64,000 nt of DNA from Bacteroidota bacterium (GTDB lineage Bacteria; Bacteroidota; Bacteroidia; Flavobacteriales_D; Sanyastnellaceae): the NCBI GenBank assembly GCA_002746975.1, contig NVXE01000006.1:121110-185109 (forward strand), in the 5' to 3' direction. Position 1 is the first letter of the stretch; each line of letters starts with the position of its first letter. The notes under the pieces are model-generated. The model saw only the letters and a program-made list of their open reading frames with translations, ran no database searches and had not been told where the DNA came from. Both the position numbers and the translations under genes were made by a program. Positions 4,491 to 64,000 of the stretch are shown here, one piece after another.

Positions 4491-4498
4491 TAAATTGC
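4491..4498 (+). promoter_or_regulatory. -7 box 4 nt before the start of the saccharopine-dehydrogenase-like gene
   Basis: TAAATTGC is followed by exactly 4 nt and then ATG 4503. It fits the recurrent box-N4-ATG geometry of this window and predicts a leaderless transcript. Confidence 0.45.
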
Positions 4499-4502
4499 GG
4501 GC

Positions 4503-5714
4503 ATGAAATTTGGTCTAATAAAAGAAGGAAAAGTGCCGCCTGATGAGAGAGTGGCGCTAACACCTGAGCAGTGTGCGGAGTTTAAGGCGAAATGGCCTGA
4601 TGTGGAGCTAGTAGTGCAGGCTAGTGAAGTGAGGCGAATTCCTGCGGAAGAGTACCGGGCGGCGGGGATTTCTGTGGTGGAGGATGTAAGCGATTGCGAT
4701 GTGCTAATAGGTGTGAAGGAAGTGAACGAGGAGGACTTGATAGAGGGGAAAACATACTTGTTTTTCAGCCATACGTATAAATTGCAGCCTTATAACGCTC
4801 GGCTTTTAGCAGCGATACTTGAGAAAAAGGTGAGTTTGATAGACTACGAAGTGCTGAAGAAGCCCGATGGGAGGAGGATAATAGGTTTCGGGCGTTATGC
4901 TGGGATTGTGGGGGCGTACAATGGGCTGAGGGCTTGGGGTTTAAGGGAGAAGTCGTTCGAACTTCCTAGGGCGATTGATGGTAAGGATTTAGACCAAATG
5001 ATTACTTCCGCTCGAAGCGTGAGCTTTCCTGGAGGAATGAAGATCGTGCTGACGGGGTTTGGACGAGTGGGACGTGGAGCTGCGGAATTGCTAGAAAAGG
5101 TAGGGGTGCGCGAGGTCGGGAAGGACGAGTTTTTATCGGTCGAATTTAATGACGGTCCTGTTTTTACTCATCTCGGCTTAGGAGATTATAATGCGAGGGT
5201 AGATGGAGGAAAGTTCGATAGGGAGGCGTTCAAAAACGACCCGTCGGAGTTTAAGAGTACCTTCCTCCCCTATGCCTGTGCCGCAGATATGTACATAGCG
5301 GGGCATTATTATAGCGATGGTTCTCCATACATTATTACGAAAGAAGATTTAAGGAATGACGATTTACGACTTAAAGTCGTAGCAGATGTAAGTTGCGATA
5401 TCGACGGACCAGTAGCATGTACGCTGAAACCATCCACTGTGGCGGATCCTGTTTATGGATATGATCCCATTAATGAATGTGAGTGCGCTTTCGATAAAAA
5501 GGGCGCTATTACAGTAATGGCCGTTGATAATTTACCGTGTGAACTTCCTAGGGATGCTTCTAAGGGCTTCGGAAGGGAGATGCTAGACCACGTTATCCCA
5601 TTACTAATAGAGGGTGATAAAGACGGAGTACTAGAAGGTGCTAGAGAAACCAACCTAAACGGGAATCTTTGCGAGAAGTTCAAATACCTAAGCGATTACG
5701 TAGCGAATTCGTAG
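4503..5714 (+). CDS. Saccharopine dehydrogenase (L-lysine-forming)-like NAD(P) oxidoreductase
   Basis: This soluble enzyme belongs to the AlaDH/PNT-fold superfamily and resembles fungal LYS1, which interconverts saccharopine with lysine plus 2-oxoglutarate. The N-terminal domain carries DERVALTP (Arg16), LIGVKEVNEED (Lys72) and FFSHTYK (His90), matching the catalytic Arg/Lys/His set of LYS1. DGRRIIGFGRYAGIVGAYNGLRAW follows near residues 121-145. The central Rossmann part has LTGFGRVGRGAAELL (about 183-197). VVADVSCDI and AVDNLPCELPRDAS near the C-terminus match the LYS1 closing segment. Length is 403 aa against about 370 in yeast. Direction and substrate in vivo are unproven: an alanine-dehydrogenase-like activity is a weaker alternative. 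It is monocistronic, and its promoter lies between it and divergent tmRNA. Confidence 0.75.
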   Translation: MKFGLIKEGKVPPDERVALTPEQCAEFKAKWPDVELVVQASEVRRIPAEEYRAAGISVVEDVSDCDVLIGVKEVNEEDLIEGKTYLFFSHTYKLQPYNARLLAAILEKKVSLIDYEVLKKPDGRRIIGFGRYAGIVGAYNGLRAWGLREKSFELPRAIDGKDLDQMITSARSVSFPGGMKIVLTGFGRVGRGAAELLEKVGVREVGKDEFLSVEFNDGPVFTHLGLGDYNARVDGGKFDREAFKNDPSEFKSTFLPYACAADMYIAGHYYSDGSPYIITKEDLRNDDLRLKVVADVSCDIDGPVACTLKPSTVADPVYGYDPINECECAFDKKGAITVMAVDNLPCELPRDASKGFGREMLDHVIPLLIEGDKDGVLEGARETNLNGNLCEKFKYLSDYVANS

Positions 5715-5763
5715 GTTGATTCACAGTTGTGTGGTGTTGTGTCATGTAAATAATACATCTAAT

Positions 5764-6492
5764 TTACTGAGCTACAAAAGCGTAGCTGAGTGTTCCCTCT
5801 TGACGCCGAGACGAGTTGGTAGATTTTAGAAATTGAGATGCGAATGCCGATTTTAATGCAGCCTGAGCGAAGCACGAGCTTGGGGAGGCGCCCGATATAA
5901 TTTCTGCAGAAAAGACTTTTCCCGAATTGTCAACTACTATTTTCACTACGATATCTGCACGACCTCGACATTGGTAACCTGGCACGTCTAAATGAAGAGG
6001 GACTCTTCCTTCTAAATCGAACCTCACAGTAACTCGGCCTTCATATTGCTTATCCCAATCGTCCATAGTATCAACGGAATTTGAGTACGACGAAGAATCT
6101 AATTTGGGCACACCTACTGTTTCGAAAGACTTTTCCTCTTCGCTTAACCTGTCAAATTCCGATGCTTCTAATGCAGCGAGATCAGCTGCGACTTCGGCTT
6201 CTAGCTGAGCTAAATCGTCCGCTGAAATTCCGGTACTGCGTTTTTCCGATGACGACTCCTTTGAAGCATCGGATCGAAGATTAGAAATTCTCTCCTCCAA
6301 CCTATCTTCGAACGTTTTCGATTTCGATTCTTCGAGCAACTCATTCATTTTCGACTCATCAAAAAAATCGACTTCAGCATATTGTTCCGAAGCGGGCTCA
6401 ACATCCGACACCGTAACACGAGTTAAAACGAACAATGCTACAGCATGAATCGCCAACGTATATAAAATCGCTTTTTGAACCCCTGCTCCCAT
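5764..6492 (-). CDS. TonB-like C-terminal domain protein, inner-membrane anchored
   Basis: This is likely an energy-transducer-like protein bridging the inner membrane and periplasm. From ATG 6492 (a TTG two codons earlier is possible) it has one N-terminal membrane helix (AILYTLAIHAVALFVLTRVTV). A long Glu/Ser-rich, probably extended region runs over residues 35-145. The C-terminal domain has YQCRGRADIVVKIVVDNSGKV, ASPSSCFAQAALKSA and the ending GTLSYAFVAQ, which is the form of TonB C-terminal domain usual in Bacteroidota. The two Cys of the C-terminal domain may form a disulfide. It starts 6 nt after the stop of the Ala-rich gene, so the two are co-transcribed. No ExbB/ExbD genes are close. 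Confidence 0.75.
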   Translation of the reverse strand: MGAGVQKAILYTLAIHAVALFVLTRVTVSDVEPASEQYAEVDFFDESKMNELLEESKSKTFEDRLEERISNLRSDASKESSSEKRSTGISADDLAQLEAEVAADLAALEASEFDRLSEEEKSFETVGVPKLDSSSYSNSVDTMDDWDKQYEGRVTVRFDLEGRVPLHLDVPGYQCRGRADIVVKIVVDNSGKVFSAEIISGASPSSCFAQAALKSAFASQFLKSTNSSRRQEGTLSYAFVAQ

Positions 6493-6498
6493 TCGCAA

Positions 6499-8433
6499 TT
6501 AATCGTGCACTACTGTAGTCTCCCTAAACCAAACCGAAGAGGTTATGCTCTGCCCATCTCTAAAATAATACGTCCCTGTCTTCATTACCACTTTTCGATA
6601 GTGAACCACACGGTCTCCATCTCTGAGGGTACGCTCGATAACGATACCGTTTTGGATTTTATAAGAACTCTCATAAAACCCCTGAGGAAGATCTACATCG
6701 GCATCTAAAAGTTCAGGAGTACCGTCATAAGTAGCAGAAGTTCCCTTTTTCATCTCATAAAGGTCAGTACGCTTGCTATAGCTACCCGATTCGGAATCTA
6801 TCCTACGTTGAGATAACTCTCCACTAAAAATAGTTTTCTGCCTATCTAAAAGATTTTGGGCAGTTTGAATTTCAATAGAATGGTTAGCCGAACCACCTTT
6901 ATACATTTCTTTAACCTCTTTTTCTACTGAATTATCATAATTTCTATATCTCGAAAAAGCCTCTTCTCTCCTGTCTATATTTTCTTGAGTTTTTTTATTA
7001 GATTCTTCCTCGCTAAGCTTAGACCGTTCAAGGAGCTGCTCAAGCTCCTCATGTTCGATATCCTTACGGTTACGTGCTTCTTGTTCACGTCTATGTAGCA
7101 TTTCCTGTTCTGCTTTAACCCTATCTGCTAGATCTTGAGCTCTGGCTTGGTTTTCTGATTTCAGAGCATCACGATAATACTTCTGAGCCTCGTCAGGTCC
7201 GTTAGTTACACTTGATGCAAGTAATGCGGCTCGCTTTCGTTCGGCCTCTTCAGCGGCTCTCTTCTTTGCAGCATCACTCTCAGCTTTAGCAGCAGCATCG
7301 TTTAGTCTGTTTTTTCTAGCTAATTCATCGGCTTGTTTTCTAGCAGCGGCTTCAGATTCAGCATTTGCAGCAGCATTAGCAGCTTCTGCAGCGGCTTGAG
7401 AGGCAGCGTCGGCTTGGGCTTGAGCGGCAGCATCAGTAGCGGCCTGGGCAGCAGCATTCGCAGCTTCCGCGGCTGCTTTATCAGCAGCGACAGCTAGGGC
7501 TTGAGCGGCATCGGCTTCAGCTTGCGAAGCGGCATCAGTTTCAGCTTGCGAAGCAGCAGCGGCATCAGATTCAGCTTGTTTTCTACGAGCATCGGCATCA
7601 GCTTGCCTCTGGCGTGCCTCTTCTTCTTGAGCCAAACGTGCGGCTTCCTCTTCGGCCTTCGCAGCAGCTTCGGCAGCTAAAGCTGCATCTTCTTCTGCTT
7701 GTTTCGCTGCAAGATCGTCTGAAATAGCATCTAATTCAGCTCTAGCTTTATCTCGTTCGACAATAGCTTCTTCAGTGTCGGGAATTAAAACTAAAGCTTC
7801 CTCGAATTTAGCAAGGGCTTCTTGCCATTGCTTCTTCTTCATAGCGTTCTCCCCTGCTTTCATAGCCACATCGAAAGCTCGCTTATTCAAACTCCTATTT
7901 TCATCTATAGAGTTAAGTCGATTTTTTTCGTTCTCTATTCTGAGCTTTACCCTATCGGTATGATCCATATCGAACTTGAATTTTCCCGTATCGATATTAT
8001 ACGTACCCATCCCTATAGGTGTGTCTAAAATAGACTCGTCAAATCCTTCTATAGTTTTAAATAAAGTCATATCAAGATCAAACCCAAAGCCATCTATATA
8101 ATCATTTTCTGGTATATTACTAACATCGAGAACTACTTTTTTAGAAACGAAGCCGTCGCGTATATATTGAAAAGTGTAGCTATGTCTTAGCGGCAATTCA
8201 AAGGAATATCCAGCACTATTATCTCCTTCCATTCTATCGTATTCCTCACCATCTTGAAAAACAACGATGACACTACCTGGTAGTTTACGTCCTGAATCTT
8301 CATCTTTAATAGTGCCTGACACAAGTAACATGCCATCTGTTTGGGCTAAAACACCGCCTATAGCAATGACAAATAATAGCGCAACAGATACAAACTTCTT
8401 GAAAGACGTGGTTACAATTTGCATAGGATTCAT
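6499..8433 (-). CDS. Secreted Ala-rich coiled-coil protein with carboxypeptidase-like and TPR regions
   Basis: From ATG 8433 the product is 644 aa. A signal peptide ends near GGVLAQ. A carboxypeptidase-regulatory-like beta domain follows (SGTIKDEDSGRKLPGSVIVVF), then a TPR-like helix pair (GENAMKKKQWQEALAKFEEALVL, about 193-215). A very Ala/Glu-rich segment rich in Gln and Lys runs from about 235 to 405, then a charged coiled coil to about 505. The C-terminal domain (LPQGFYESSYKIQNG..VVHYRKVVMKTGTYYFRDGQSITSSVWFRET) is of a type common in Bacteroidota surface proteins. The Ala-rich helix recalls TolA domain II, which spans the periplasm. The downstream gene is a TonB-like protein, so a trans-envelope complex is plausible but unproven. 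The start is chosen because TATTTTTA lies exactly 4 nt upstream; an ATG five codons earlier would leave that box inside the gene. Confidence 0.75.
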   Translation of the reverse strand: MNPMQIVTTSFKKFVSVALLFVIAIGGVLAQTDGMLLVSGTIKDEDSGRKLPGSVIVVFQDGEEYDRMEGDNSAGYSFELPLRHSYTFQYIRDGFVSKKVVLDVSNIPENDYIDGFGFDLDMTLFKTIEGFDESILDTPIGMGTYNIDTGKFKFDMDHTDRVKLRIENEKNRLNSIDENRSLNKRAFDVAMKAGENAMKKKQWQEALAKFEEALVLIPDTEEAIVERDKARAELDAISDDLAAKQAEEDAALAAEAAAKAEEEAARLAQEEEARQRQADADARRKQAESDAAAASQAETDAASQAEADAAQALAVAADKAAAEAANAAAQAATDAAAQAQADAASQAAAEAANAAANAESEAAARKQADELARKNRLNDAAAKAESDAAKKRAAEEAERKRAALLASSVTNGPDEAQKYYRDALKSENQARAQDLADRVKAEQEMLHRREQEARNRKDIEHEELEQLLERSKLSEEESNKKTQENIDRREEAFSRYRNYDNSVEKEVKEMYKGGSANHSIEIQTAQNLLDRQKTIFSGELSQRRIDSESGSYSKRTDLYEMKKGTSATYDGTPELLDADVDLPQGFYESSYKIQNGIVIERTLRDGDRVVHYRKVVMKTGTYYFRDGQSITSSVWFRETTVVHD

Positions 8434-8437
8434 TTCG

Positions 8438-8445
8438 TAAAAATA
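8438..8445 (-). promoter_or_regulatory. -7 box 4 nt before the Ala-rich gene
   Basis: The minus strand reads TATTTTTA, then 4 nt, then ATG 8433. It supports the shorter start for the gene and a leaderless transcript of the Ala-rich/TonB-like pair. Confidence 0.4.
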
Positions 8446-8521
8446 CAAGTTTATAGTTTAACCGCTATATATGTAACCTTAGCCCTCTGAAATTCGTAGT
8501 AAGTAACATAATTCCCGTGTT

Positions 8522-10309
8522 ATGAAAAATTTGTACCTCTCCTCACACCGACTAATCACACTAGTTTTTACTGTGATTCTCAGCACTCTTTCCACTTTAA
8601 ATGCCCAAACCTTTTCAGCAACGGCAGGTCCAGTGTCTCAGTTAGGTTCTGATGCACCTGAGTCCGGAGCTTCACCTTTAGGAATGGGACTTTCTATGCA
8701 ACAAAACGTTGGTAGATTTGTGAGTCTTGACCTCGATTCTTGGAAAGGCGATTTATACGAAGACTATGGCTTTCAGGGAGAGAGATCCCAGCTTACATCA
8801 ATAGGTGCGGCAGTTCGATTAATTCCTTTTCTTTCGTCAAAAACAGCGGTACGACCTTGGATTGGAGGTGGTGTAAGCTGGGGAAGCAATCATGTAAAAG
8901 CAGACCTTTTAGATAGTCAGGGAAGAGAATATCATCTTTGGTCTGATGGGTTATTATACGACGTAGAGGAACCTGCAAGTGCCGGAACTAGGTCAAATGA
9001 TCCAGGGAAAGCAACTCAATTATTTAGGGATTACGAATACGAAACTTCACTAGGAGCGAAGAAAGGAATAACACTGCCTGTTAAATTAGGAGTGGATATT
9101 CAACTTACTCCTGCTATGAAAAGTTCATTTTCTTTCACAGCAAACCTAGGAAGTTCTAACATCTTCAACAATTTCGGCTCAGAAAAAGCAATTGGAGGAA
9201 AATCAATGGTTACAACTTTACAAGCTGGATTAGGCTTTAACATTAGCAATCGCTCTAAAAGGACTAAAATAAAAACTGTTTTATCAGATTCTAAATTCAG
9301 TTCAAATATGGACTTTGATAGAGATGGGATAAATGATATCGTAGATCGTTGCCCAGGAACACCAGCAGGAGCTTCAGTAAACGAAAAAGGTTGTGCCACT
9401 GACTTTGATGGAGATGGAGTGCCTGATTATAGAGATTTGGAAATTCATTCTCTCTCTCCTTATGTCGACGTAGACGGTATATCCGTTACTCATGAAGAGT
9501 GGGATGCTATGTATTCAACAACAAAAGCTTCTCCTGACTCTTATGTTCTGGATTATGCTGTTATTGTGGCCGAATTTACACCTGAGGACTACAAAAAAAT
9601 GCTTGAAGCGGCTGGTAATACAGCTGAAAAGTCTGAAAATAGAGCCCTAGAGAAATTAAATGAAGCGATTGAGAATTCTGTTCTTACATACAGAGTTCAA
9701 TACGGTGTGTTTAGTGAAAACATGAAACCTGAAGACACGCATTTCGAAGTGTTAGCAGATAATTCAGGGCTGCTGCGCTATGTTGGTCCTTCTCATGATA
9801 GCACGATTTCTGCGAGAGAAGAATTAGAGCAGAATGAAGCAGAATGGGCTGATGATGCTTTTATCACAGCTTACAGAGATGGACGACGCATTACTATGGC
9901 AGAAGCAATAGGACTTGAAGCTCATAGAAAGTTCAATTCTCCTGAGATCTCTAAGACTGAAAACGTTAATGAGACACCTAGCATTGAGACTCAAGCAAAT
10001 ACTGAATATAAGACGGCTTTTAAAAGAGATATCCCCGTATTTAGGGTTCAGCTCGGAAGGTTTAGCGATTTGATTCCAGTAGATATATTTGAAATGTTTA
10101 TGACTTTAGGAGATGTAGAACAAACCATCGAGAGCGATGGAACTTACAGATATTTCACTTTGGCTTATGCCGATGAAGCTGAGGCTAGACAGGTGTTAGA
10201 ACACGTAAAAGACATAGGTATTTCAGATGCCTTCCTAACAGCTGAGGTAAATGGTTCGATTATCTCAATACTTGAAGCCCGAGAATTAACTAGCAACAAT
10301 AACGAATAA
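8522..10309 (+). CDS. Outer-membrane beta-barrel protein with TSP3 calcium repeats and two SPOR-like domains
   Basis: This is a 595-aa protein with a signal peptide (cleavage after STLNAQ, about residue 29). Residues 30-245 form an OmpA-like N-terminal barrel pattern (IGAAVRLIPF, RPWIGGGVSW, TLQAGLGFNIS). Two thrombospondin type-3-like calcium motifs follow near 262-305 (DFDRDGINDIVDRCPGTPAG and DFDGDGVPDYRD), as between barrel and peptidoglycan-binding parts of OmpA proteins. Instead of an OmpA domain it ends in two SPOR-like units: YRVQYGVFS at about 395 with GLLRYVG, and FRVQLGRFS at about 508 with TYRYFTLAYADEAEA. SPOR domains bind denuded peptidoglycan, so the protein probably links the outer membrane to the wall. 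It is divergent from the Ala-rich/TonB-like pair, suggesting a shared envelope role. A hairpin between direct repeats follows it. Confidence 0.75.
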   Translation: MKNLYLSSHRLITLVFTVILSTLSTLNAQTFSATAGPVSQLGSDAPESGASPLGMGLSMQQNVGRFVSLDLDSWKGDLYEDYGFQGERSQLTSIGAAVRLIPFLSSKTAVRPWIGGGVSWGSNHVKADLLDSQGREYHLWSDGLLYDVEEPASAGTRSNDPGKATQLFRDYEYETSLGAKKGITLPVKLGVDIQLTPAMKSSFSFTANLGSSNIFNNFGSEKAIGGKSMVTTLQAGLGFNISNRSKRTKIKTVLSDSKFSSNMDFDRDGINDIVDRCPGTPAGASVNEKGCATDFDGDGVPDYRDLEIHSLSPYVDVDGISVTHEEWDAMYSTTKASPDSYVLDYAVIVAEFTPEDYKKMLEAAGNTAEKSENRALEKLNEAIENSVLTYRVQYGVFSENMKPEDTHFEVLADNSGLLRYVGPSHDSTISAREELEQNEAEWADDAFITAYRDGRRITMAEAIGLEAHRKFNSPEISKTENVNETPSIETQANTEYKTAFKRDIPVFRVQLGRFSDLIPVDIFEMFMTLGDVEQTIESDGTYRYFTLAYADEAEARQVLEHVKDIGISDAFLTAEVNGSIISILEARELTSNNNE

Positions 10310-10343
10310 AGCTTTAGCTAGAGCCAGAGCCAAAGCTTTAGCT
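10308..10343. terminator. Hairpin with direct repeats between convergent genes
   Basis: AAAGCTTTAGCT occurs at 10308-10319 and again at 10332-10343. GCTTTAGCT can pair with AGAGCCAAAGC (one mismatch) to form a stem of about 9 bp around an 8-nt loop. It sits between the convergent SPOR protein and FAD dehydrogenase genes, so a weak bidirectional terminator is likely. Confidence 0.35.
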
Positions 10344-10346
10344 CGA

Positions 10347-11999: not shown

Positions 12000-12003
12000 A
12001 ATG

Positions 12004-12011
12004 CGAAGATA
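12004..12011 (-). promoter_or_regulatory. -7 box for the FAD dehydrogenase gene
   Basis: TATCTTCG on the minus strand is followed by 4 nt and ATG 11999. It decides the start of a gene whose frame is open much further upstream. Confidence 0.45.
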
Positions 12012-12027
12012 TCTGGTTTGACCTGCG

Positions 12028-12035
12028 TACTTTCG
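12028..12035 (+). promoter_or_regulatory. -7 box for the 2-oxoacid dehydrogenase E1 gene
   Basis: TACTTTCG is followed by 7 nt and ATG 12043. It is arranged back to back with the box of the divergent FAD gene, 16 bp apart, so the two promoters share upstream DNA and may interfere with each other. Confidence 0.4.
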
Positions 12036-12042
12036 TACTCCT

Positions 12043-14064: not shown

Positions 14065-14158
14065 TTTTTCTTGCCTAAAAAGTCGTAATTAACTGACTTG
14101 TTGATATCTCGTGACAAAAAAGTGACCGTCTGAAATTGGTTATATCGTAAAATAGGTG

Positions 14159-14166
14159 TAGTTTAA
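14159..14166 (+). promoter_or_regulatory. Candidate -7 box before the 101-aa gene
   Basis: TAGTTTAA is followed by 7 nt and ATG 14174. It is a weaker match to the box seen at other starts. Confidence 0.3.
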
Positions 14167-14173
14167 CTCCGCT

Positions 14174-14500: not shown

Positions 14501-14524
14501 CTGTCTTTTTCCTTACGATAGGTC

Positions 14525-15106: not shown

Positions 15107-15114
15107 GGGCAGAG

Positions 15115-19226: not shown

Positions 19227-20891
19227 CTACTCAATTACAAGCTTAAGTGTAGAAGACGTTCCATCAATAGTCCGTACAGTAATGTAGTGAAGTCCCTTTG
19301 ATAGACCAGACACATCTAGTGAGTAACTCTCATCTAAAAAAGCTGGAATAATCGTATCAATTATTCTTCCCTGTGCATCGTAAATCCTTAATTCAGATAA
19401 TTGAGCACTTTTAGGCATAGATACTAAGACGACATTTGAAGCAGGGTTAGGGCTAATTGAGAAACCCTTAGTTTCTAAAGCAATACCACCTACATCCAAA
19501 GCGCTACAGGCACCGAACCCACCACAAGGAAACTCACCCTCGCCTACATAACTTCCGTATACTATATCTTGCCCAGATCCAGAAGGGTCAAGGAACACGT
19601 TTAGTTTCTGAGAAGCCGATATAGGATTAGGACCATCCCAATGGTAACTCATCTTACCGTAGAAATCTGGCTGAGTAGGCCCAGTTCCATTTCCTGCACT
19701 ACCTACTGCACATGCAGAAAGTCCAGAGCTTAGCGTTCCTAATATTTGATGGTTTTCACTGAATATTGGTGAACCTGAAGACCCCCCTTCGGTAACTCCA
19801 TGATTAGTTTCTGTTGCAGTCCAAAAAACTCGCCAATGTGACCCCGCACCACCTATACTATATGAAGTAAGGTTTGATGTATAATGTGAAATCTTCTTTC
19901 TATCCCCAGCTGGATGATGAATGCCCACTCCTGAGTGTCCTGTTTCGCCTGAAGCATCAAATCCAGCATAGAAGGGGTTCCAATTTGCTGGAATCGGGTC
20001 TTCTACCTCTAAAAGTAAGAAATCTGAGCCATTAAAACCCTGTGAAGTTGCGTCATCACTATTTGTTAAAGAAATAACGCCTGTTCTAGAATGGGAATTT
20101 ATAGAAACAGTTCCTCCACACTCAGTATATTCATAATTATATCTGACTTTAAAAAAAGCCCACTCATCACTACTTACAGAATTAGCACAGTGAAAGGCAC
20201 TCAATAATAGCTGTCTACAATCAAGGTCTGTATTATTAACCATTGCTCCACTACAGTAAAAAATACCGCCATCTTGAGTAATACGCAATCTCACTACTGC
20301 GTCTTTCTCACATTGCCACGAATCACCTTCTGGACACATTATATCTACCTCACAATCATCCGACCCTCTCGATACACCTGTAACGAAATAACCTATTCCC
20401 ATGATTCCGAGTCTTGCATTACCCACGGTAGAAGATGACTGCCTATAAATTATTTTAATAACATCTCCTGGAATATCTCCACTTGCCCATCGTCCATGAT
20501 CGTTATTCTCGATTGAACTAACTGGACCTTCCTGATAAATTGATAAAAACGCTCCTTCTTCCGATTCAAAAAACAATTTCCCTCCTACTGGAATATGAAA
20601 GTCATTAAAATAAACGCATAAACCCGATGCGTTTGCTGACTCGATATTTAAAACCCATTCAGTGATTCCGTTTGGTAACAACTCTGAATCAGCTAATTCG
20701 AAGAAATCCATTTCCGCTTCAATAATTACCCCTACCATATCACGACCATTTAATTGTCCCTCTTTATCAATTCTCTCAAAAACCTCACTCGTGTTCGGAG
20801 GAGATACTGTTACATTTTGAGCCTTTGCTTCAACTGTAAACAAAATGCATATAAAGGCAAGGAAAAGACTATAATTAAGAAATGTTTTCAT
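19227..20891 (-). CDS. Secreted trypsin-like serine protease with T9SS type A sorting domain
   Basis: This 554-aa secreted protease is related to lysyl endopeptidases. It has a signal peptide (FLNYSLFLAFICILFTVEAKAQ), a pro-region with a beta fold to about residue 165, and a chymotrypsin-fold domain. The catalytic residues are His about 234 in SAFHC, Asp about 300 in NGSDFLLLEV and Ser about 382 in GGSSGSPIF. Many Cys pairs suggest disulfides. The C-terminus (SISPNPASNVVLVSMP..LRIYDAQGRIIDT..YSLDVSGLSKGLHYITVRT) is a type A sorting domain that directs export through the type IX system and attachment or release at the cell surface. ATG 20891 is chosen because a good signal peptide begins there and TATCTTTC lies exactly 4 nt upstream. 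The frame is open 17 codons further. Confidence 0.92.
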   Translation of the reverse strand: MKTFLNYSLFLAFICILFTVEAKAQNVTVSPPNTSEVFERIDKEGQLNGRDMVGVIIEAEMDFFELADSELLPNGITEWVLNIESANASGLCVYFNDFHIPVGGKLFFESEEGAFLSIYQEGPVSSIENNDHGRWASGDIPGDVIKIIYRQSSSTVGNARLGIMGIGYFVTGVSRGSDDCEVDIMCPEGDSWQCEKDAVVRLRITQDGGIFYCSGAMVNNTDLDCRQLLLSAFHCANSVSSDEWAFFKVRYNYEYTECGGTVSINSHSRTGVISLTNSDDATSQGFNGSDFLLLEVEDPIPANWNPFYAGFDASGETGHSGVGIHHPAGDRKKISHYTSNLTSYSIGGAGSHWRVFWTATETNHGVTEGGSSGSPIFSENHQILGTLSSGLSACAVGSAGNGTGPTQPDFYGKMSYHWDGPNPISASQKLNVFLDPSGSGQDIVYGSYVGEGEFPCGGFGACSALDVGGIALETKGFSISPNPASNVVLVSMPKSAQLSELRIYDAQGRIIDTIIPAFLDESYSLDVSGLSKGLHYITVRTIDGTSSTLKLVIE

Positions 20892-20895: not shown

Positions 20896-20903
20896 GAAAG
20901 ATA
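20896..20903 (-). promoter_or_regulatory. -7 box for the T9SS protease gene
   Basis: TATCTTTC on the minus strand is followed by 4 nt and ATG 20891. It supports the start inside the longer open frame. Confidence 0.45.
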
Positions 20904-20957: not shown

Positions 20958-20965
20958 TACCTTGT
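20958..20965 (+). promoter_or_regulatory. -7 box for the S41 protease gene
   Basis: TACCTTGT is followed by 6 nt and ATG 20972. It supports the start at MKNLNYLY, where a signal peptide begins. Confidence 0.4.
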
Positions 20966-20971: not shown

Positions 20972-22603
20972 ATGAAAAACCTGAACTACCTGTACTTGGC
21001 TTTCGCTTTATCGTTTGCCTTTTTCCCATTCACTCCTGCTTCAGCCCAAACCACAGCTAAGCAAGCCTCAACTAAATTCGCCACTCTTCTAAACATGCTT
21101 GATCGACTTTACGTCGATAGTGTCGATATGGAAGTACTCGTTGAAGCTGCGATAGTCCATATGCTTGAAGAGTTAGATCCACACTCTGTGTACTTTTCTG
21201 CCGATGACTTAAAAGAAGCTAATGAACCTCTAGATGGAAGTTTCGAGGGCGTAGGGGTACAGTTTAATATTTTCAAAGACACTATAATGGTGGTATCCCC
21301 TATTGCTGGAGGTCCTTCAGAAAGACTAGGCATTAGAGCAGGCGATAGAATAGTTCAAGTTGAGGAAGAATATGTCGCAGGTGTAGGAGTCACAACAAAA
21401 GATGTGATACGCTTACTTAAAGGTCCTAAAGGGTCTATGGTAAAAGTATTTATCAAACGTGACGGCGAAAACAAAATTCTAGAATTCAATATTGAAAGAG
21501 ATAAAATTCCAATTTACAGTGTTATCGCAGCCCACATGGTAACACCAACAATCGGCTACATAAAGGTTAGTCGTTTTGCAAAGACAACCATGGAAGAGCT
21601 TCGTATTGCACTTGAAGACTTAAACAAAGCTGGCATGAAAGATCTAATCCTAGACCTTCAGGGTAATGGTGGTGGAATGCTCACAACAGCTATAAATATG
21701 TCTGACGAATTTCTATCTGACGATAAATTGATTGTATATACAGAGGGACGCGCTTTCCCAAGAGAGAACACATATGCTTCTTACGAAGGTCTTTTCGAAA
21801 AAGGAAGACTGATTATCCTTATGGATGGCGGTTCTGCATCAGCTAGTGAAATTGTAGCAGGTGCAGTACAAGATTGGGATAGAGGGCTTATTGTCGGCAG
21901 ACGTTCTTTTGGCAAGGGTTTAGTCCAAAGACCCATAAGGCTAGGCGATGGTTCTGCTGTAAGAATGACAGTTCAGAAATACTATACTCCAGCCGGAAGA
22001 TGTATACAAAAGTCATATGATGATGGAATCGAATCATATAGGAACGAAAAATATGAGCGTTACGAAAAAGGTGAATTATTAAGCTTAGATTCACTTGAGC
22101 TTCATGACTCTTTGAAGTACTACACAAGAATAAAACATCGCACAGTATATGGTGGTGGAGGAATTCTACCAGACATCTTCGTTCCCATTGATACAACAGC
22201 TAATAGCCCAGCATTTAGAATATTATTACGTAAAGGGTTAATGAGCAGATACGCACTAGAGTTCGTTGACGAAAACAGAAGTAAAATCCTAGAAGCATAT
22301 CCAACAGAGGATAATTTCGTTATGGACTTCAAAATGTCGGACAATGAAATTGCGAATTTCCGTAATTGGGCTGAAGGAGAAGGCACAGAAGAAGACCCCA
22401 TAACTATTTCGGAAGAGGACTGGGCAATATCTGGAGAGGCTATCACATTGCGTCTCAAAGCTTTTATAGGTCGAAACGCCTATGAACCATCTACTTTCTA
22501 TCGTATAATAGGAGGCTTAAACGAATCTCTTCAAGAAGCAATTAAAATCCTCAACGATGGACGGTTTGAAAGTAATAAATTAGCTTATAGAACTTTTAAA
22601 TAA
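20972..22603 (+). CDS. C-terminal processing peptidase, S41 family
   Basis: This periplasmic serine protease of the CtpA/Prc type is 543 aa from ATG 20972. It has a signal peptide ending near PASAQ, then a helical N-domain (MLDRLYVDSVDMEVLVEAAI, LDPHSVYFS). A PDZ domain is at about 75-160 (GSFEGVGVQFNIFKDTIMVVSPIAGGPSERLGIRAGDRI). In the protease domain the catalytic Ser lies in DGGSASASEIVAGAVQDW (about 289) and the general-base Lys in GRRSFGKGLVQ (about 313). The C-terminal 120 residues are a helical extension typical of Bacteroidota S41 peptidases. Such enzymes trim or degrade periplasmic and lipoprotein substrates at their C-termini; the substrate here is unknown. It is divergent from the T9SS protease. 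Confidence 0.93.
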   Translation: MKNLNYLYLAFALSFAFFPFTPASAQTTAKQASTKFATLLNMLDRLYVDSVDMEVLVEAAIVHMLEELDPHSVYFSADDLKEANEPLDGSFEGVGVQFNIFKDTIMVVSPIAGGPSERLGIRAGDRIVQVEEEYVAGVGVTTKDVIRLLKGPKGSMVKVFIKRDGENKILEFNIERDKIPIYSVIAAHMVTPTIGYIKVSRFAKTTMEELRIALEDLNKAGMKDLILDLQGNGGGMLTTAINMSDEFLSDDKLIVYTEGRAFPRENTYASYEGLFEKGRLIILMDGGSASASEIVAGAVQDWDRGLIVGRRSFGKGLVQRPIRLGDGSAVRMTVQKYYTPAGRCIQKSYDDGIESYRNEKYERYEKGELLSLDSLELHDSLKYYTRIKHRTVYGGGGILPDIFVPIDTTANSPAFRILLRKGLMSRYALEFVDENRSKILEAYPTEDNFVMDFKMSDNEIANFRNWAEGEGTEEDPITISEEDWAISGEAITLRLKAFIGRNAYEPSTFYRIIGGLNESLQEAIKILNDGRFESNKLAYRTFK

Positions 22604-24552: not shown

Positions 24553-24560
24553 TAACTTAG
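24553..24560 (+). promoter_or_regulatory. -7 box for the rhomboid gene
   Basis: TAACTTAG is followed by 5 nt and ATG 24566. It argues for this ATG over the TTG at 24545. Confidence 0.35.
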
Positions 24561-27487: not shown

Positions 27488-27495
27488 TATATTGC
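27488..27495 (+). promoter_or_regulatory. -7 box for ruvX
   Basis: TATATTGC is followed by exactly 4 nt and ATG 27500. It favours this ATG over the one 7 codons upstream. Confidence 0.4.
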
Positions 27496-28362: not shown

Positions 28363-28370
28363 CAAAATTA
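28363..28370 (-). promoter_or_regulatory. -7 box for the HAD phosphatase gene
   Basis: TAATTTTG on the minus strand, a perfect TAnnTTTG, is followed by 4 nt and ATG 28358. It separates this gene from bshC transcription. Confidence 0.45.
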
Positions 28371-35941: not shown

Positions 35942-35949
35942 TACCTTTG
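35942..35949 (+). promoter_or_regulatory. -7 box for the TonB-dependent receptor gene
   Basis: TACCTTTG, a perfect box, is followed by 8 nt and ATG 35958. It lies inside a longer open frame (from 35904) and so supports the shorter start at the signal peptide. Confidence 0.5.
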
Positions 35950-44383: not shown

Positions 44384-44391
44384 TAAAGTTA
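44384..44391 (-). promoter_or_regulatory. -7 box for the lytic transglycosylase gene
   Basis: TAACTTTA on the minus strand is followed by 6 nt and ATG 44377. Confidence 0.35.
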
Positions 44392-45007: not shown

Positions 45008-45774
45008 TATCTAAGTCCAACAATTACAGCGTATAGCAAACTCAAAGAAGAAAATACAGAAACGATAGGTGTTATTTGGGTTAAATAACCCGATGCAATT
45101 TCCGGATTAGAACTGACGTAAATGATGTCATTTGCCTGAACTATTAACGAAGCATTTTCTAGACCCTGAATCGTGCTTAAATCGAGTAAGTAAACTTCTC
45201 TACCTTCTGGAGTGCTACGAATCAATTTAATCTTAGAAGAGATACCCCTAGACCTTACACCTCCAGCAAGAGCAAGTGCTTCTAAAACGGTTGTGTTTTT
45301 ATTCTCTAGAGTAATTACAGAGGCTTGCCCAGCCTCGCCAGGGAAAACAAGTACTCGATTATTTGTCACATTCAGTAATATATATGGGTCGTGATAGTTT
45401 TCTGAATAAGCACTTTCTATCCTAAACTCAGCCTCTTCTAAGGTCAAACCTGCTATTTCTATCTCTCCTATTTCAGGTAACTCAACCATACCTGAGGGCT
45501 TCACTCTGTAGGTGATTAAGACTCGGCTTTGGTTTAAAATATTATTCTTATCATCAGCCGTTATACCAGTACTTACTGACAAAAGACGCTCACCTCCATT
45601 TGGATACAACTGAATTGAAAGCTCGTCGTTAGGAGCAATTTTATAATCCGAAACCGAAATTTTAGATATCTTTGAGTATTCAAAATTCGGAGCAGATTGA
45701 AAAAGTAAATCTTTATTTATGGTGCAGCTCGTGCCAAATAAAGAGATTAGGGCAAAAATTACAATCATTCGCAT
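45007..45774 (-). CDS. Polysaccharide export outer-membrane lipoprotein (Wza-like)
   Basis: This 255-aa protein belongs to the polysaccharide export family (Poly_export plus SLBB). The lipobox FGTSC sets the lipid-bearing Cys at residue 17. Its polysaccharide export domain is at about 40-120 (SVSDYKIAPNDELSIQLYPNGGERLLSV, VKPSGMVELPEIGEIEIAGLTLEEAEFRIESAY). An SLBB-like domain follows at about 140-215 (VLVFPGEAGQASVITLENKNTTVLEALALAGG, KIKLIRSTPEGREVYLLDL). The end has a hydrophobic helix (TQITPIVSVFSSLSLLYAVIVGL) like the outer-membrane barrel helix of Wza. No Wzc partner is visible. The start sits 4 nt after TACCTTGC. Confidence 0.92.
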   Translation of the reverse strand: MRMIVIFALISLFGTSCTINKDLLFQSAPNFEYSKISKISVSDYKIAPNDELSIQLYPNGGERLLSVSTGITADDKNNILNQSRVLITYRVKPSGMVELPEIGEIEIAGLTLEEAEFRIESAYSENYHDPYILLNVTNNRVLVFPGEAGQASVITLENKNTTVLEALALAGGVRSRGISSKIKLIRSTPEGREVYLLDLSTIQGLENASLIVQANDIIYVSSNPEIASGYLTQITPIVSVFSSLSLLYAVIVGLR

Positions 45775-45778: not shown

Positions 45779-45786
45779 GCAAGGTA
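45779..45786 (-). promoter_or_regulatory. -7 box for the Wza-like gene
   Basis: TACCTTGC on the minus strand is followed by 4 nt and ATG 45774. Together with the divergent box at 45794 it occupies a 31-bp gap. Confidence 0.45.
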
Positions 45787-45793: not shown

Positions 45794-45801
45794 TAACTTC
45801 G
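45794..45801 (+). promoter_or_regulatory. -7 box for the GNAT gene
   Basis: TAACTTCG is followed by 4 nt and ATG 45806. Confidence 0.4.
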
Positions 45802-51428: not shown

Positions 51429-51436
51429 TAAAACTA
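51429..51436 (-). promoter_or_regulatory. -7 box for the M23 peptidase gene
   Basis: TAGTTTTA on the minus strand is followed by 4 nt and ATG 51424. Confidence 0.4.
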
Positions 51437-51856: not shown

Positions 51857-51861
51857 CCCCT

Positions 51862-53765: not shown

Positions 53766-53782
53766 ATAATACATAACACCGG

Positions 53783-55327: not shown

Positions 55328-55332
55328 AAATC

Positions 55333-55926: not shown

Positions 55927-55929
55927 ACT

Positions 55930-57962: not shown

Positions 57963-57964
57963 GA

Positions 57965-59221: not shown

Positions 59222-59228
59222 TAAAGGG

Positions 59229-59903: not shown

Positions 59904-59938
59904 TAATCTCTAACAATAATAATTTACCTAGTTATAAA

Positions 59939-61015
59939 ATGAAGAACGTTTTGAAATTTTTTACAACATCAATAATTTTTGGTTTTATTTTATCGGTTAA
60001 TGCTTTAGCCCAAACACCATCTAATATTGAGGCAGCCGAATATGATTCCGTAAATAATAGATGGTTTGTTAGTTGTGGGTCTTCAACTCTATTGTCAACT
60101 TCAGATTTGGGTGAAAGTTGGGATTATTTCGGCAACGCTCAAGCTTCTCACGGAATGGAAGTAATGGGAAATGTTCTTTTCGTTCTTTATAATAACCAAA
60201 TCAGATCGTACGATTTAAGTTCAGGAGATTTACTTGGCTCTACTTCAGTAGCTGGTGCGAGTTTTTTAAATGGTATGGGTAATGACGGGGTATCTACGTT
60301 AATAATTAGTGATTTCTCTTCAGGAAGGATTTTAAAGGTCGATGCCTCAAACCCCGCTGATATGGTATCTATTACACTTGTTGGAAATACCGGCACTACA
60401 CCTAACGGAGTGGTCGTTGATGAATCAAATGGACGAGCGATAATCGTGAATTGGGGTGGGAATGCCGATATCTTAGCGGTTGATATAGAGAGTGGTGAAT
60501 TAACAACGTTAGTAAGCGGAACTGGTTTAGGCAATTGTGACGGGATAGATATGGACGCGCTAGGTCGTTACTATGTGAGCTCATGGTCACCACCGAGAAT
60601 TACACGATTCAGTGCCGATTTCACAGAGTCGGAAACAGTTGTAGATAACGGTCTTAATAATCCCGCCGATATCTCGTTCGACGAAATCAACAATGTTCTA
60701 GGTGTAGCAAATAGTGGATCGGGCATAGTAACTTTCCACCAATTCATTAACGCCTCCGTCTATAATCAGAACGAAATTGAGAACGAGAATACAGTTGAAC
60801 TTAACGGTCGTTATTTGATCTTCAACAACGTTCAAACGGATAAGTTTCGGATCTCTGCTTTTGCCATAAACGGAAAGTTACTTGGCGAAACTCAACTCGA
60901 CCTTCCTAAAGGATCAACTAGAGTTGCAATTGACCGTCTACCTAATTATTTTAGAGAAGCTGCAATAATTCGAGTGAACGAACATAGTTTTAAACTGGGT
61001 CTACGTCAATTTTAA
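59939..61015 (+). CDS. Secreted beta-propeller (SMP-30/NHL-like) protein with T9SS-like C-terminus
   Basis: This 358-aa secreted protein has a signal peptide (VLKFFTTSIIFGFILSVNALAQ). A six-bladed propeller runs over about 28-275 (IEAAEYDSVNNRWFVSCGSSTLLSTSDLGESW, DASNPADMVSITLVGNTGTTPNGVVVDESNGRAIIVNWGG, GNCDGIDMDALGRYYVSSWSPPRITRFS). The end (about 285-358) has the beta-sandwich spacing of a type A sorting domain (LIFNNVQTDKFRISAFAINGKLLGETQLDLPKGSTRVAI) but lacks the PNP motif. The last 26 bp overlap the convergent priA gene, so the sorting domain may be modified or degenerate. A lactonase-like activity is not supported by metal residues I can see. Confidence 0.75.
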   Translation: MKNVLKFFTTSIIFGFILSVNALAQTPSNIEAAEYDSVNNRWFVSCGSSTLLSTSDLGESWDYFGNAQASHGMEVMGNVLFVLYNNQIRSYDLSSGDLLGSTSVAGASFLNGMGNDGVSTLIISDFSSGRILKVDASNPADMVSITLVGNTGTTPNGVVVDESNGRAIIVNWGGNADILAVDIESGELTTLVSGTGLGNCDGIDMDALGRYYVSSWSPPRITRFSADFTESETVVDNGLNNPADISFDEINNVLGVANSGSGIVTFHQFINASVYNQNEIENENTVELNGRYLIFNNVQTDKFRISAFAINGKLLGETQLDLPKGSTRVAIDRLPNYFREAAIIRVNEHSFKLGLRQF

Positions 61016-63494
61016 TTCTCAATCGCTTCCATCTTTCGTCAGAAATAAAGTCTTCAACATCCAACTGTATCGTAGGTCCATATTCTGAAGGAGGAATTTC
61101 CCTTTCGAATTTAAGAAGTAACTGTTGTCTATAGAGATCGTTAATCTTTGATACGCCTGGAATATCAGGCCCTACTACTCTATGATCACCAAATCTTTGT
61201 CTCAATCTTAATGCAAGGACTTCTGCTCCAGTTTTCACCCTCTCTTCATCACTATAGCTTAATGAAATTCTAATAAGCCTAACATAAGGAGGGTAGTGAT
61301 AATTTTTGCGTTCTAAAAGCTCGTGTTTTACAAGTTTATCGTGATCGCCAGAGACTACTTGTTGAATTACCCAATGGTCGGGCGAGAAGGTTTGGACTAC
61401 AACTTTACCACGCTCAGAGGAACGGCCAGATCTTCCGGCTACTTGTGTGAGCATCTGATAAGCACGCTCGAACGAACGGAAATCCGGAAAAGTGAGCATA
61501 CGATCTGCACTCATCACTCCTACAAGAGCAACATCCTGAAAATCAAGACCTTTGCTTATCATTTGTGTTCCTACAAGTATATCGAGTTCGTGGTTTCCAA
61601 AAGCCTCAAGAATTTTTGTGTGGGCAGTTCTAGAACGAGTGGTATCCCTATCCATTCTAGCTACCCTTGCTGTGGGAAAAAGTTCAGACAGTTCCTCTTC
61701 TATTCTCTCAGTTCCTAGTCCTTTGGGTTTAATAGAAAAACTACCGCACGCTCCACATTTTTTCGGAGGAGGTGAAATTGAGTATCCGCAATGATGGCAA
61801 TGCAAACCGTTCACACGTTTATGCATGGTAAGAGGAATATCACAACGCTCACACATCACCGCTTCTCCACAAGCATCGCATTGCCATGAAGGAGCATAGC
61901 CTCGTCTATTTTGAAATAAAATTACTTGCTTTTCTCTGCTTAATGCTGCTTTTATTTCATCTCGAAGCATTTTAGAAAAGCCACCCCGCATAGAGCGTTG
62001 TTTGTGTTCCTTTTTAAGATCTGAGACAAGAATTTGCGGCATCATAACACCTCCAAATCTTTCCGTTAGATTAACTCTTGTAATACGTCCTTTTTCTGAA
62101 TTCCAAATCGTTTCTACTGATGGAGTTGCAGAACCAAGCACTATAGGGATTTTGTTTTTTACAGACATCCAAAGAGCTACGTCTCTTGCATTGTAACGTG
62201 GAGATGGGTCTTGTTGCTTATAAGAAGGTTCGTGTTCTTCGTCAACTATTATAAGTCCTAGATTTTTAAAGGGCAAAAATATCGCTGATCTAGGCCCCAC
62301 TATTAAAGAGCCGTTTTTTTCATCTAGAATCTTAATCCAAGTCTCTGTTCTTTCGTTTGAGCTAAAGCGGGAATGATAAACTCGAACAGAGTTGCCGAAA
62401 AACTTCTGAAGACGTGTGATTAACTGAGTAGTCAAAGCAATTTCCGGAACTAGAAATAAAACTTGCTGTCCAGCATTTAATGTTTCGGAAATAAGGTGTA
62501 CGTATATTTCTGTCTTCCCTGCTCCAGTAACTCCGTATAATAACGCAGGCTTACGTTTTATTAGTGATTCTCGAAGTTCCGTGTAAGCACGAGATTGAGA
62601 AGTCGACAATTCAGGTAATGATTCAACCTTCCCTTTGTAAACAGAAATCCTATCTACTTCTCGTTCTTCTAGCTCGAACACATTTTTTTCGACCCATTTT
62701 TTTATGACCGAAGAATTGACGTTTGCTCGTTTTTGAAGGACCGACTTTAAAATCGCCTCGCCATTAGGGGCTAATTCGAGATAAGAAAGAAGAGCTCTAG
62801 CTTGAACAGGTGCACGTTTTTCAACTCTTTCCAATTCAGCCTTTAAAACTTCTTCTTCCTCTAAAACTTCACTTAAAATCCGAACATAAACCTTTTTTTT
62901 CGCCTTATACCTTTCTTTTAATTCCTCTTCAGATATTGCAAGACCCCTATCTATGAGCAAGCTCACAATACGTTGTGGGTACTTCACCCCCAGCACATTA
63001 GATACTTCTTTCAAGTCCAAACCATCACTCATACATAACGCATCAAATAATCTCAATGCAGAATTACTGAGTCCATCCTCACGTGCGATTCTATCCTTAT
63101 CCTTGTGAAGTTCAGGATTTAGGATTATTCTAGATTTACTTGCCAGTTTCATTCCCGATGGTAAAGCTGCCGAAACCACATCGCCTAGTGTACACAGGTA
63201 ATGCTTGGCAATCCATGTCATACAGGCGATTTGGGATAAAGTAACAACAGGCCTATCATCTACTACAGCCTCAATATCTTTAACCAAATATCCCTCTGGA
63301 TTGCGATTATGAACCTCCCAAACAACTCCGGTAAGCCTACGTTTACCTAACGGAACCACAACCCTTACCCCTACCTCAGGAGCTTTTTCATCTCCAGACC
63401 AACGATAGGTCAATACTTGAGGTAAAGCAGCAGGAAGAGCTACGTCACAATAAACCTTAGTAGGTTGTGAATTATTATTGATAACATTCGGCAT
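60990..63494 (-). CDS. priA: Primosomal replication protein N' (PriA helicase)
   Basis: PriA is a superfamily 2 helicase that reloads the replisome at stalled forks. The 834-aa protein has the DNA-binding start VYCDVALPAALPQVLTYRWSG, and in the helicase LLYGVTGAGKTEIYVHLI (Walker A), VPEIALTTQLITRLQKFFG, VDEEHEPSYKQQDPSPRYNARDVALW (DEAH) and LGSATPSVETIW. The zinc-binding insert follows: WQCDACGEAVMCERCDIPLTMHKRVNGLHCHHCGYSISPPPKKCGACGS in outline (eight Cys). The closing blocks are GTERIEEELSELFPTARVARMDRDT, GTQMISKGLDFQDVALVGVMSADRML and QVAGRSGRSS. It overlaps the propeller gene by 26 bp at the 3' end. Confidence 0.97.
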   Translation of the reverse strand: MPNVINNNSQPTKVYCDVALPAALPQVLTYRWSGDEKAPEVGVRVVVPLGKRRLTGVVWEVHNRNPEGYLVKDIEAVVDDRPVVTLSQIACMTWIAKHYLCTLGDVVSAALPSGMKLASKSRIILNPELHKDKDRIAREDGLSNSALRLFDALCMSDGLDLKEVSNVLGVKYPQRIVSLLIDRGLAISEEELKERYKAKKKVYVRILSEVLEEEEVLKAELERVEKRAPVQARALLSYLELAPNGEAILKSVLQKRANVNSSVIKKWVEKNVFELEEREVDRISVYKGKVESLPELSTSQSRAYTELRESLIKRKPALLYGVTGAGKTEIYVHLISETLNAGQQVLFLVPEIALTTQLITRLQKFFGNSVRVYHSRFSSNERTETWIKILDEKNGSLIVGPRSAIFLPFKNLGLIIVDEEHEPSYKQQDPSPRYNARDVALWMSVKNKIPIVLGSATPSVETIWNSEKGRITRVNLTERFGGVMMPQILVSDLKKEHKQRSMRGGFSKMLRDEIKAALSREKQVILFQNRRGYAPSWQCDACGEAVMCERCDIPLTMHKRVNGLHCHHCGYSISPPPKKCGACGSFSIKPKGLGTERIEEELSELFPTARVARMDRDTTRSRTAHTKILEAFGNHELDILVGTQMISKGLDFQDVALVGVMSADRMLTFPDFRSFERAYQMLTQVAGRSGRSSERGKVVVQTFSPDHWVIQQVVSGDHDKLVKHELLERKNYHYPPYVRLIRISLSYSDEERVKTGAEVLALRLRQRFGDHRVVGPDIPGVSKINDLYRQQLLLKFEREIPPSEYGPTIQLDVEDFISDERWKRLRIKIDVDPV

Positions 63495-63501
63495 TCTAAG
63501 T

Positions 63502-63509
63502 GCAAAGTA
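63502..63509 (-). promoter_or_regulatory. -7 box for priA
   Basis: TACTTTGC on the minus strand is followed by 7 nt and ATG 63494. Confidence 0.35.
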
Positions 63510-63524
63510 CCACCGTATGAGGCG

Positions 63525-63532
63525 TAATTTTA
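63525..63532 (+). promoter_or_regulatory. -7 box for bcp
   Basis: TAATTTTA is followed by 4 nt and ATG 63537. The divergent priA box lies 15 bp away. Confidence 0.35.
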
Positions 63533-63536
63533 TGAA

Positions 63537-64000
63537 ATGTCAAAATGTATTTCTCCACTTCAAGTTGGCGACCAAGCTCCTGAATTTAGTTCTCATGACC
63601 AGTCAGGCGTATCTCGTTCTCTTTCAGATTATTCTGGTACCAAACTAGTTTTGTACTTCTACCCCAAGGATAATACTCCAGGATGTACTACTCAAGCTTG
63701 TAACCTTACAGAAAACTTCTCTGAGCTAACAAAGCACGGAATTAAAATTCTAGGGGTTAGTCCCGATTCTGAGGCGAAACACCTCAAATTTATCGCTAAG
63801 TTCGATATTGCTTTTGACCTACTAGCAGACGAGGATAAAAGCGTGCATAAAGCGTTTGGAGTTTGGGGAGAAAAGAAATTTATGGGGAAGGTCTTCGACG
63901 GGACTCATCGCACTACTTTTTTAATTGACGAAAATGGTAAAATCGTAACTATAATATCTAAGCCAAACTGTAAAGACCACGCGGCGGAAGTGCTAGCCGG
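63537..64000 (+). CDS. bcp: Thioredoxin-dependent thiol peroxidase (Bcp-type peroxiredoxin), 3' end cut by window
   Basis: This cytoplasmic peroxiredoxin reduces hydroperoxides using thioredoxin. The visible 154 residues start MSKCISPLQVGDQAPEFSSHDQSG and contain KLVLYFYPKDNTPGCTTQACNLTENF: the peroxidatic Cys in PGCTT and the resolving Cys five residues on, the atypical 2-Cys arrangement of the Bcp/PrxQ class. Later blocks are ILGVSPDSEAKHLKFIAKFDIAFDLLADED and RTTFLIDENGKIV. Nearly the whole protein (usual length about 150-155 aa) is present; the stop lies beyond 64000. It is divergent from priA with 42 bp between starts. Confidence 0.95.
   Translation, partial: MSKCISPLQVGDQAPEFSSHDQSGVSRSLSDYSGTKLVLYFYPKDNTPGCTTQACNLTENFSELTKHGIKILGVSPDSEAKHLKFIAKFDIAFDLLADEDKSVHKAFGVWGEKKFMGKVFDGTHRTTFLIDENGKIVTIISKPNCKDHAAEVLA

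Follow-up and report, generated by a model that had tools for sequence, protein, structure and literature searches.

In the 64,000-nucleotide (nt) stretch of contig NVXE01000006.1 analyzed here (the window), which comes from the draft genome of an uncultured member of the Bacteroidota, related to Flavobacteria and belonging to the family Sanyastnellaceae (the host family), a TAnnTT box lies exactly 4 nt upstream of the start codon of many genes. We found that this arrangement recurs across the genome and its family: the box stands at a fixed gap, is enriched at genes that must have a promoter of their own, is conserved between relatives and has a characteristic surrounding base composition. 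We consider it very likely that these boxes are sigma-A-type promoters of Bacteroidota that yield leaderless mRNAs, often with transcription starting at the A of the ATG. From this pattern we infer where the RNA begins, which sigma factor is used and how ribosomes enter. RNA polymerase would bind TAHHTT(T/C/G)G, transcription would start 4 nt downstream of the box at a pyrimidine-A step to give an mRNA beginning 5'-AUG, and ribosomes would initiate on this 5'-terminal AUG without a Shine-Dalgarno (SD) sequence or an A-rich leader. The original prediction, made from the window alone, had proposed leaderless -7-type promoters and, for operon first genes, leaderless initiation as the main mode; the 4-nt peak, the divergent bias, the conserved box and spacing, the pyrimidine at -1 and the lack of SD and -33 elements sustain the promoters, but not their role as the main mode.

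Boxes peak exactly 4 nt before start codons

The source genome (G000) is a draft of 14 contigs and 2,390,714 bases, 95% complete, in which the window corresponds to C3:121110-185109. We analyzed a 704-kb sample of the 2,391 kb, consisting of 300 kb of C8, 220 kb of C2, 120 kb of C3 and the window. Genes were called with a hexamer coding model that ignores upstream signals, which yielded 559 genes, 554 of them with a neighbor and used here. Operon structure was guessed from intergenic gaps, such that genes with an opposite-strand neighbor or a same-strand gap >40 nt were presumed to be first genes (n=341) and the others inner genes (n=213). All start candidates with near-equal coding score were taken, and the background, defined as the mean TAnnTT count per distance in the range of 9-45 nt (37 distances), was measured identically. 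Calling single starts by the best hexamer score lowered the peak and blurred the base profile, and was dropped.

The positional peak anticipated by the original prediction appeared at exactly 4 nt among the called first genes: 50 of the 341 carry TAnnTT at this distance, against a background mean of 8.16 and a maximum of 17 (Poisson P=4e-23), and the neighboring distances of 3 and 5 nt have counts of 10 and 13. By stretch, the box is present at 19/141 first genes in C8, 17/118 in C2 and 10/34 in the window; the 120-kb C3 stretch has no stand-out 4-nt peak (4/48; background 1.5, maximum 4). The 24,407 other, non-start ATGs of the sample are flat at 4 nt (177 vs. 171.6, standard deviation 21), and the control motifs AAnnTT and AAnnTA give no comparable 4-nt peak in the same sample. 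Likewise, TTG, CTG and ATT start candidates show no 4-nt excess (2/194 vs. 3.65, 0/93 vs. 1.78 and 9/281 vs. 8.7, respectively).

The signal follows gene arrangement

Within G000, the 4-nt box occurs at 32/160 divergent genes (background 4.35), 18/181 same-strand genes with a gap >40 nt (3.8) and 8/213 inner genes (3.3). Pooling G000, its genus and the other genera of the family, we obtained an excess of 14.6% for divergent genes (76/454, background 9.6), 8.1% for same-strand gaps >100 nt (30/299, 5.8), 12.2% for gaps of 41-100 nt (26/185, 3.5), 7.0% for gaps of 11-40 nt (15/172, 3.0) and 3.2% for gaps <=10 nt (14/325, 3.7). Thus, genes that require a promoter of their own give the strongest signal, yet it is present elsewhere, and a peak confined to first genes was rejected, given that this finer split by gap shows a graded signal. 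For 7 of the 14 family boxes at gaps <=10 nt, the gap is exactly 9 nt and the TA of the box belongs to the upstream stop codon (TAA or TAG); these shared sequences may reflect chance or promoters fused to the stop.

The divergent arrangement can be compact. The ATGs at 45774 and 45806 of the window are 31 bp apart and each is boxed at 4 nt, and two divergent candidate ATGs in C2 (185750/185775) are separated by 24 bp, which two -7 boxes standing back to back and their 4-nt gaps fill exactly (4+8+8+4 nt). In the G000 sample, boxes at 4-8 nt flank both sides of 6/80 divergent pairs. Divergent gaps <=60 bp make up 26% in G000, 30% in the genus, 20% in the other genera of the family and 0-12% in other families and Bacteroidales.

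Conservation among orthologs

Orthologs in the genus sample were available for 111 G000 genes, giving 281 pairs. Wherever G000 had a start candidate at 4 nt, that candidate was taken as its start, a choice that favors the G000 side and not the orthologs. The 4-nt box of first genes is kept at 4 nt in 31/37 pairs. The same distance is kept for first-gene boxes at 9-45 nt in 10/119 pairs, for inner-gene boxes at 9-45 nt in 10/50, and for first-gene boxes at 5, 6, 7 and 8 nt in 3/9, 1/4, 1/4 and 5/10, respectively.

The region between priA (start at 63494) and the gene starting at 63537 was compared across 13 loci, of which those of G008, G009 and G013 were unreadable, being cut at the start, with the G010 locus not included. 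For the gene at 63537, the box and its 4-nt gap recur in 8/8 genus loci with a readable start (G000 and 7 others), with spacers that differ at constant length (TGAA, TGTT, TCTT, AGTT, TCCT). The 7-nt gap of priA is kept in 7/8 such loci, G000 included. At the two loci from other genera, G014 and G015, the 4-nt box on the strand opposite to priA is absent. In G005 and G009 (loci L230 and L233), the 45774 box is kept and the aligned ATG is absent; judging from the aligned sequences, the start has perhaps moved downstream there, in a switch from a leaderless to a leadered message.

Box composition and surroundings

Base composition was taken from 104 G000 and genus sites selected solely by TAnnTT at 4 nt. 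G is found at the two H positions of the consensus in 9% and 1% of these sites, the last base is G in 56%, and the seventh base is T in 45%, so that the unselected positions fit the Bacteroidota sigma-A -7 element, with a seventh base weaker than the consensus. This element has been revised to TAHHTTTG, with the start site 4 or 5 nt away (Baez et al., PMC6847099). Given that published spacing, a 4-nt gap puts +1 on the A of the ATG or adjoining it.

Bacterial promoters usually have a pyrimidine just before the start site. A pyrimidine occupies -1 in 73/104 boxed sites of G000 and the genus, compared to 150/339 inner genes (P=4e-6) and 329/621 box-less first genes (P=0.001), and in 27/28 vs. 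39/66 for the other genera of the family (P=1e-4), a bias expected if transcription begins at the A of the ATG. The 4-nt spacer has an A content of 0.284 vs. 0.411 upstream of inner genes, where the region is A-rich (P=3e-6); an A-poor spacer is expected if the spacer is absent from the mRNA.

The original prediction had described -33 TTG elements as mostly absent and SD sequences as not evident, and both descriptions held. No TTG or TTTG peak was found around -33 in the sequence upstream of 132 boxes, which does not exclude a -7-type box because the -33 element is far less evident in Flavobacterium johnsoniae too (PMC6847099). We counted SD cores (GGAG, GAGG or AGGA) of divergent genes at -20..-5 against a control stretch at -45..-30 and found them rarer than in the control in G000 (2/160 vs. 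10/160) and in the genus (5/106 vs. 11/106); in the other genera of the family they were neither depleted nor enriched (11 vs. 10 of 102).

For the ribosome, 16S 3' ends could be compared in five relatives with a full-length match among the 26 searched. The canonical 3' pattern is found in G026 and G033, and G014 and G030 have differences nearby with CCTCC retained. In G004, of the same genus as the host, the 3' end reads GGATTAACTCCTTT (G004:C129:2176-2197), an altered anti-SD core with ACTCC in place of CCTCC, as seen in this one draft genome. Single changes at 1535-1537 are reported to be tolerated in F. johnsoniae, and Chryseobacteria with UCUCA are described (PMC8710568, PMC9976891); Bacteroidota ribosomes are reported to ignore SD sequences (PMC9976891). 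The ribosomal protein bS21 is present in G000 and in 36/40 genomes.

Distribution across Bacteroidota

Using the same method throughout, we counted first genes with a 4-nt box over all first genes (background in brackets): 54/384 (7.6) in the host genus, 28/213 (3.1) in other genera of the family and 8/103 (2.5) in G030, from a nearby family, followed by 6/119 (3.1) in G026, 4/102 (3.7) in G037, 2/104 (2.5) in G027, 1/50 (1.0) in other named Flavobacteriales and 1/55 (1.2) in Bacteroidales. The 4-nt peak is a mark of the host family; elsewhere in the sampled Bacteroidota it is weak or missing. In an RpoD tree built from 47 chosen rows, the host family lies within Flavobacteriales and outside Flavobacteriaceae; the long-branched named metagenome-assembled genome L087 falls inside the host family in this tree, an unsure placement. 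As a separate observation on RpoD, the 23 host-family genomes with a match have one close copy (91-100% identity), with any second match at <=46%, and 11/15 sampled genomes of other families have two close copies or pieces (74-88%), with a single one in G028, G030, G035 and G039.

The boxes resemble the sigma-A promoters described for F. johnsoniae, Flavobacterium psychrophilum and Bacteroides thetaiotaomicron in the -7 consensus and the lack of SD sequences, and those of F. johnsoniae also in the weak or absent -33 element. They differ in that the start site in those organisms is usually reported well upstream of the start codon, whereas the host family prefers a box distance of 4 nt. Published shares are 5.5% leaderless for F. 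psychrophilum (PMC9723704), 87% of predicted leaders >10 nt and hence 13% <=10 nt for F. johnsoniae (PMC6847099), and about 3.7% of leaders <10 nt for B. thetaiotaomicron (PMC7366714), figures that are not strictly comparable with ours because they derive from mapped start sites and ours from promoter boxes. In Deinococcus-Thermus and Actinobacteria, the TA-led leaderless genes described by Zheng et al. 2011 (PMC3160421) likewise have a promoter box close to the start codon, at a distance of about 10-12 nt, that is read as leaderless, but use a different box, TANNNT; that survey reports any such genes in 1/37 Bacteroidetes/Chlorobi genomes, at 2.4%. The TTGC boxes at 4503, 27500, 45774 and 63494 and the TTGT box at 20972 resemble the SM5 promoters (TAnnTTGY) of F. 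psychrophilum, which are placed at -12 to -5 of the mapped start site and ascribed to a likely alternative sigma factor (PMC9723704).

Among the matches listed, no report described leaderless genes as widespread in any lineage of Bacteroidota, at the level of titles and abstract openings and with subscription papers and preprints outside the search. For Bacteroidetes in general, leaderless mRNA and/or S1 was suggested from base frequencies in 4 species by Nakagawa et al. 2017 (PMC5397173), who also cite others for a high leaderless share, and StartLink (PMC9581028) describes AT-rich non-canonical ribosome-binding sites in the FCB group.

Short leaders, prevalence and other readings

The boxes could instead be promoters whose mRNAs carry leaders of only 1-4 nt and are not strictly leaderless. 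The original prediction had lumped gaps of 5-8 nt with those of 4 nt, a grouping that holds only in part. For all boxes together, the counts at 5, 6, 7 and 8 nt in G000 first genes (13, 9, 5 and 13 vs. 8.2 each) are not clearly above chance. TAnnTTG boxes alone exceed chance at 5-8 nt, in G000 (13 vs. 5.8, P=0.007) and in the genus (15 vs. 5.6, P=7e-4); they are enriched at 4 nt as well, and resemble TAnnTTGY, a class described in F. psychrophilum; the conserved 7-nt gap of priA also speaks for short leaders. On the other side, TAnnTTT and TAnnTTC boxes peak at 4 nt with a 5-8 nt sum not above background, the -1 base is mostly a pyrimidine, and the TAnnTTG excess at 5-8 nt is not significant in the other genera (4 vs. 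1.8, P=0.1). From their spacing, TAnnTTG-boxed genes at 5-8 nt may carry leaders of 1-4 nt; such leaders probably apply to a subset only, and we find them unlikely as a general account of the boxes.

Leaderless initiation as the main mode for first genes is less probable still. In G000, the 4-nt excess amounts to about 12% when all presumed first genes are counted and to 17-20% when only divergent genes are. These fractions are lower bounds owing to imperfect start calling, and the window reaches 10/34, but a relaxed box matrix leaves the excess at or below about 20% of divergent genes, and the subset with conserved starts has the 4-nt box at 14/66 first genes (8/36 divergent, 6/30 with a same-strand gap >40 nt) and 1/27 inner genes. 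An expectation-maximization mixture model put the leaderless fraction at 0.23 for the 4-nt distance in G000, with a clean TAnnTT matrix, but was not used because for other distances and in other sets it shifted toward AT-rich composition, with control values up to 1.0. The window is richer in 4-nt boxes than the rest of the sample (10/34, with 0.86 expected per distance, vs. 40/307 outside it; the window count includes 940 and excludes 63537, which is not callable at the window edge), and the impression of a main mode may stem from this richness. Going by box counts, the leaderless class is probably substantial and widespread, covering between about one-eighth and one-fifth of first genes, and not a majority; the remaining first genes presumably have leaders or unrecognized promoters.

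Instead of a promoter, TAnnTT might also be a ribosome-recognition element within a leader, serving as a translation signal of a non-SD type. Its closeness to the start codon, the reported lack of SD sequences in Bacteroidota and the boxed same-strand genes with short gaps (17/204 at <=40 nt in the genus, background 2.8) would suit such a role. Yet inner genes in close packing, whose need for translation signals is no smaller, show the least excess (3.2% vs. 14.6% for divergent genes) and have an A-rich upstream region instead, half of the boxes at gaps <=10 nt use the upstream stop codon, and the unselected positions fit the sigma-A -7 consensus. We regard a translation signal as very improbable. 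The graded signal, not confined to first genes, slightly raises its probability and slightly lowers that of leaderless promoters. Finally, although TAnnTT is short and common in this AT-rich genome and starts are uncertain, chance or a start-calling artifact is hardly credible, given that the same starts yield 8.2 boxes per distance against a peak of 50, non-start ATGs are flat, orthologs keep the box and other Bacteroidota are weak or negative by the same analysis; chance is refuted at the scale of the sample, and individual sites are uncertain.

Several observations weigh against leaderless promoters at the boxed genes or limit their reach. Genes with short same-strand gaps are boxed at 4 nt in the genus (10/83 at 11-40 nt and 7/121 at <=10 nt, background 1.4 for each) and in G000 (2/66 and 6/147, background 1.3 and 2.0), and 291/341 G000 first genes lack TAnnTT at 4 nt. 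GTG candidates may show the 4-nt gap too (8/124 vs. 1.97 expected in G000), and some of them may be true leaderless GTG starts. The boxes at 20891 and 28358 are not kept in the single ortholog examined (G005), and in G000 alone the -1 pyrimidine bias gives P=0.09 (34/50 vs. 160/291 box-less first genes). Named loci, mostly Flavobacteriaceae, show a small 4-nt peak as well (30/589, background 15.6, P=8e-4); this set comprises L024-L103 minus 22 hand-removed loci and loci <=10 kb, includes some titled only Bacteroidetes or Flavobacteriales, and has its strict TAnnTTTG boxes most commonly 16-25 nt before the start, with a smaller cluster at 6 nt. In addition, all start codons come from a home-made hexamer caller.

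Boxes in the window

With the 50 nt upstream of each start inspected, the TAnnTT box was confirmed at 10/10 window positions for which the original prediction gave a 4-nt gap, and it was also present at 7/7 positions with a gap of 5-8 nt. The part of the window between 940 and 4503 is thinly coding, with called-gene gaps of 943 and 1385 nt and a G+C content of 35% over positions 1-4000.

Table 1. Candidate -7 boxes at a 4-nt gap (upper rows) and boxes at gaps of 5-8 nt (lower rows) in the window.
Box	Position	Strand	Gap (nt)	ATG	Gene product	Orthologs and remarks
TAATTTCA	945..952	-	4	940		extra box, unlisted in the original prediction
TAAATTGC	4491..4498	+	4	4503	AlaDh/PNT N-terminal domain protein (Pfam)	box and gap same in G005 ortholog
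TATTTTTA	8438..8445	-	4	8433	no Pfam match	no ortholog in genus sample
TATCTTCG	12004..12011	-	4	11999	FAD-dependent protein (Pfam)	G005 ortholog: TATCTTCG tata ATG
TATCTTTC	20896..20903	-	4	20891	Por_Secre_tail protein	not kept in G005 ortholog
TATATTGC	27488..27495	+	4	27500	RuvX	kept in G005 ortholog
TAATTTTG	28363..28370	-	4	28358		G005 ortholog without box, reads TAAGGTGG
TACCTTGC	45779..45786	-	4	45774	polysaccharide export protein	4-nt gap in 4/4 listed orthologs
TAACTTCG	45794..45801	+	4	45806	GNAT acetyltransferase	4-nt gap in 6/7 listed orthologs, 5 nt in the remaining one
TAGTTTTA	51429..51436	-	4	51424	M23 peptidase	G005 ortholog: TAGTTTTA cagc ATG
TAATTTTA	63525..63532	+	4	63537		gene runs past window edge
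TACTTTCG	12028..12035	+	7	12043	E1 dehydrogenase/transketolase-type protein	
TAGTTTAA	14159..14166	+	7	14174	no Pfam match	
TACCTTGT	20958..20965	+	6	20972	S41 peptidase	TTG-type box
TAACTTAG	24553..24560	+	5	24566	rhomboid	
TACCTTTG	35942..35949	+	8	35958	TonB-dependent receptor plug domain protein	
TAACTTTA	44384..44391	-	6	44377	SLT transglycosylase	
TACTTTGC	63502..63509	-	7	63494	PriA	

Implications

These findings probably reveal a substantial leaderless class, as read from promoter boxes, in a bacterial group where leaderless messages have been thought rare. More tentatively, we raise the possibility of a family-wide 15-nt merged signal (-7 box, 4 nt, AUG) serving a large class of genes, with two differently spaced box types, divergent promoters accommodated in 24 bp and boxes that may use stop codons, combined in the host genus with a decaying anti-SD core (ACUCC in one readable relative) and ribosomes specialized for 5'-terminal AUG. 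If this gene class of the family is leaderless, close relatives would hold natural leaderless and leadered pairs of one gene, and such pairs would be a test bed for leader loss. Moreover, the rule of box, 4 nt and ATG would allow start-codon correction and promoter annotation from sequence alone.

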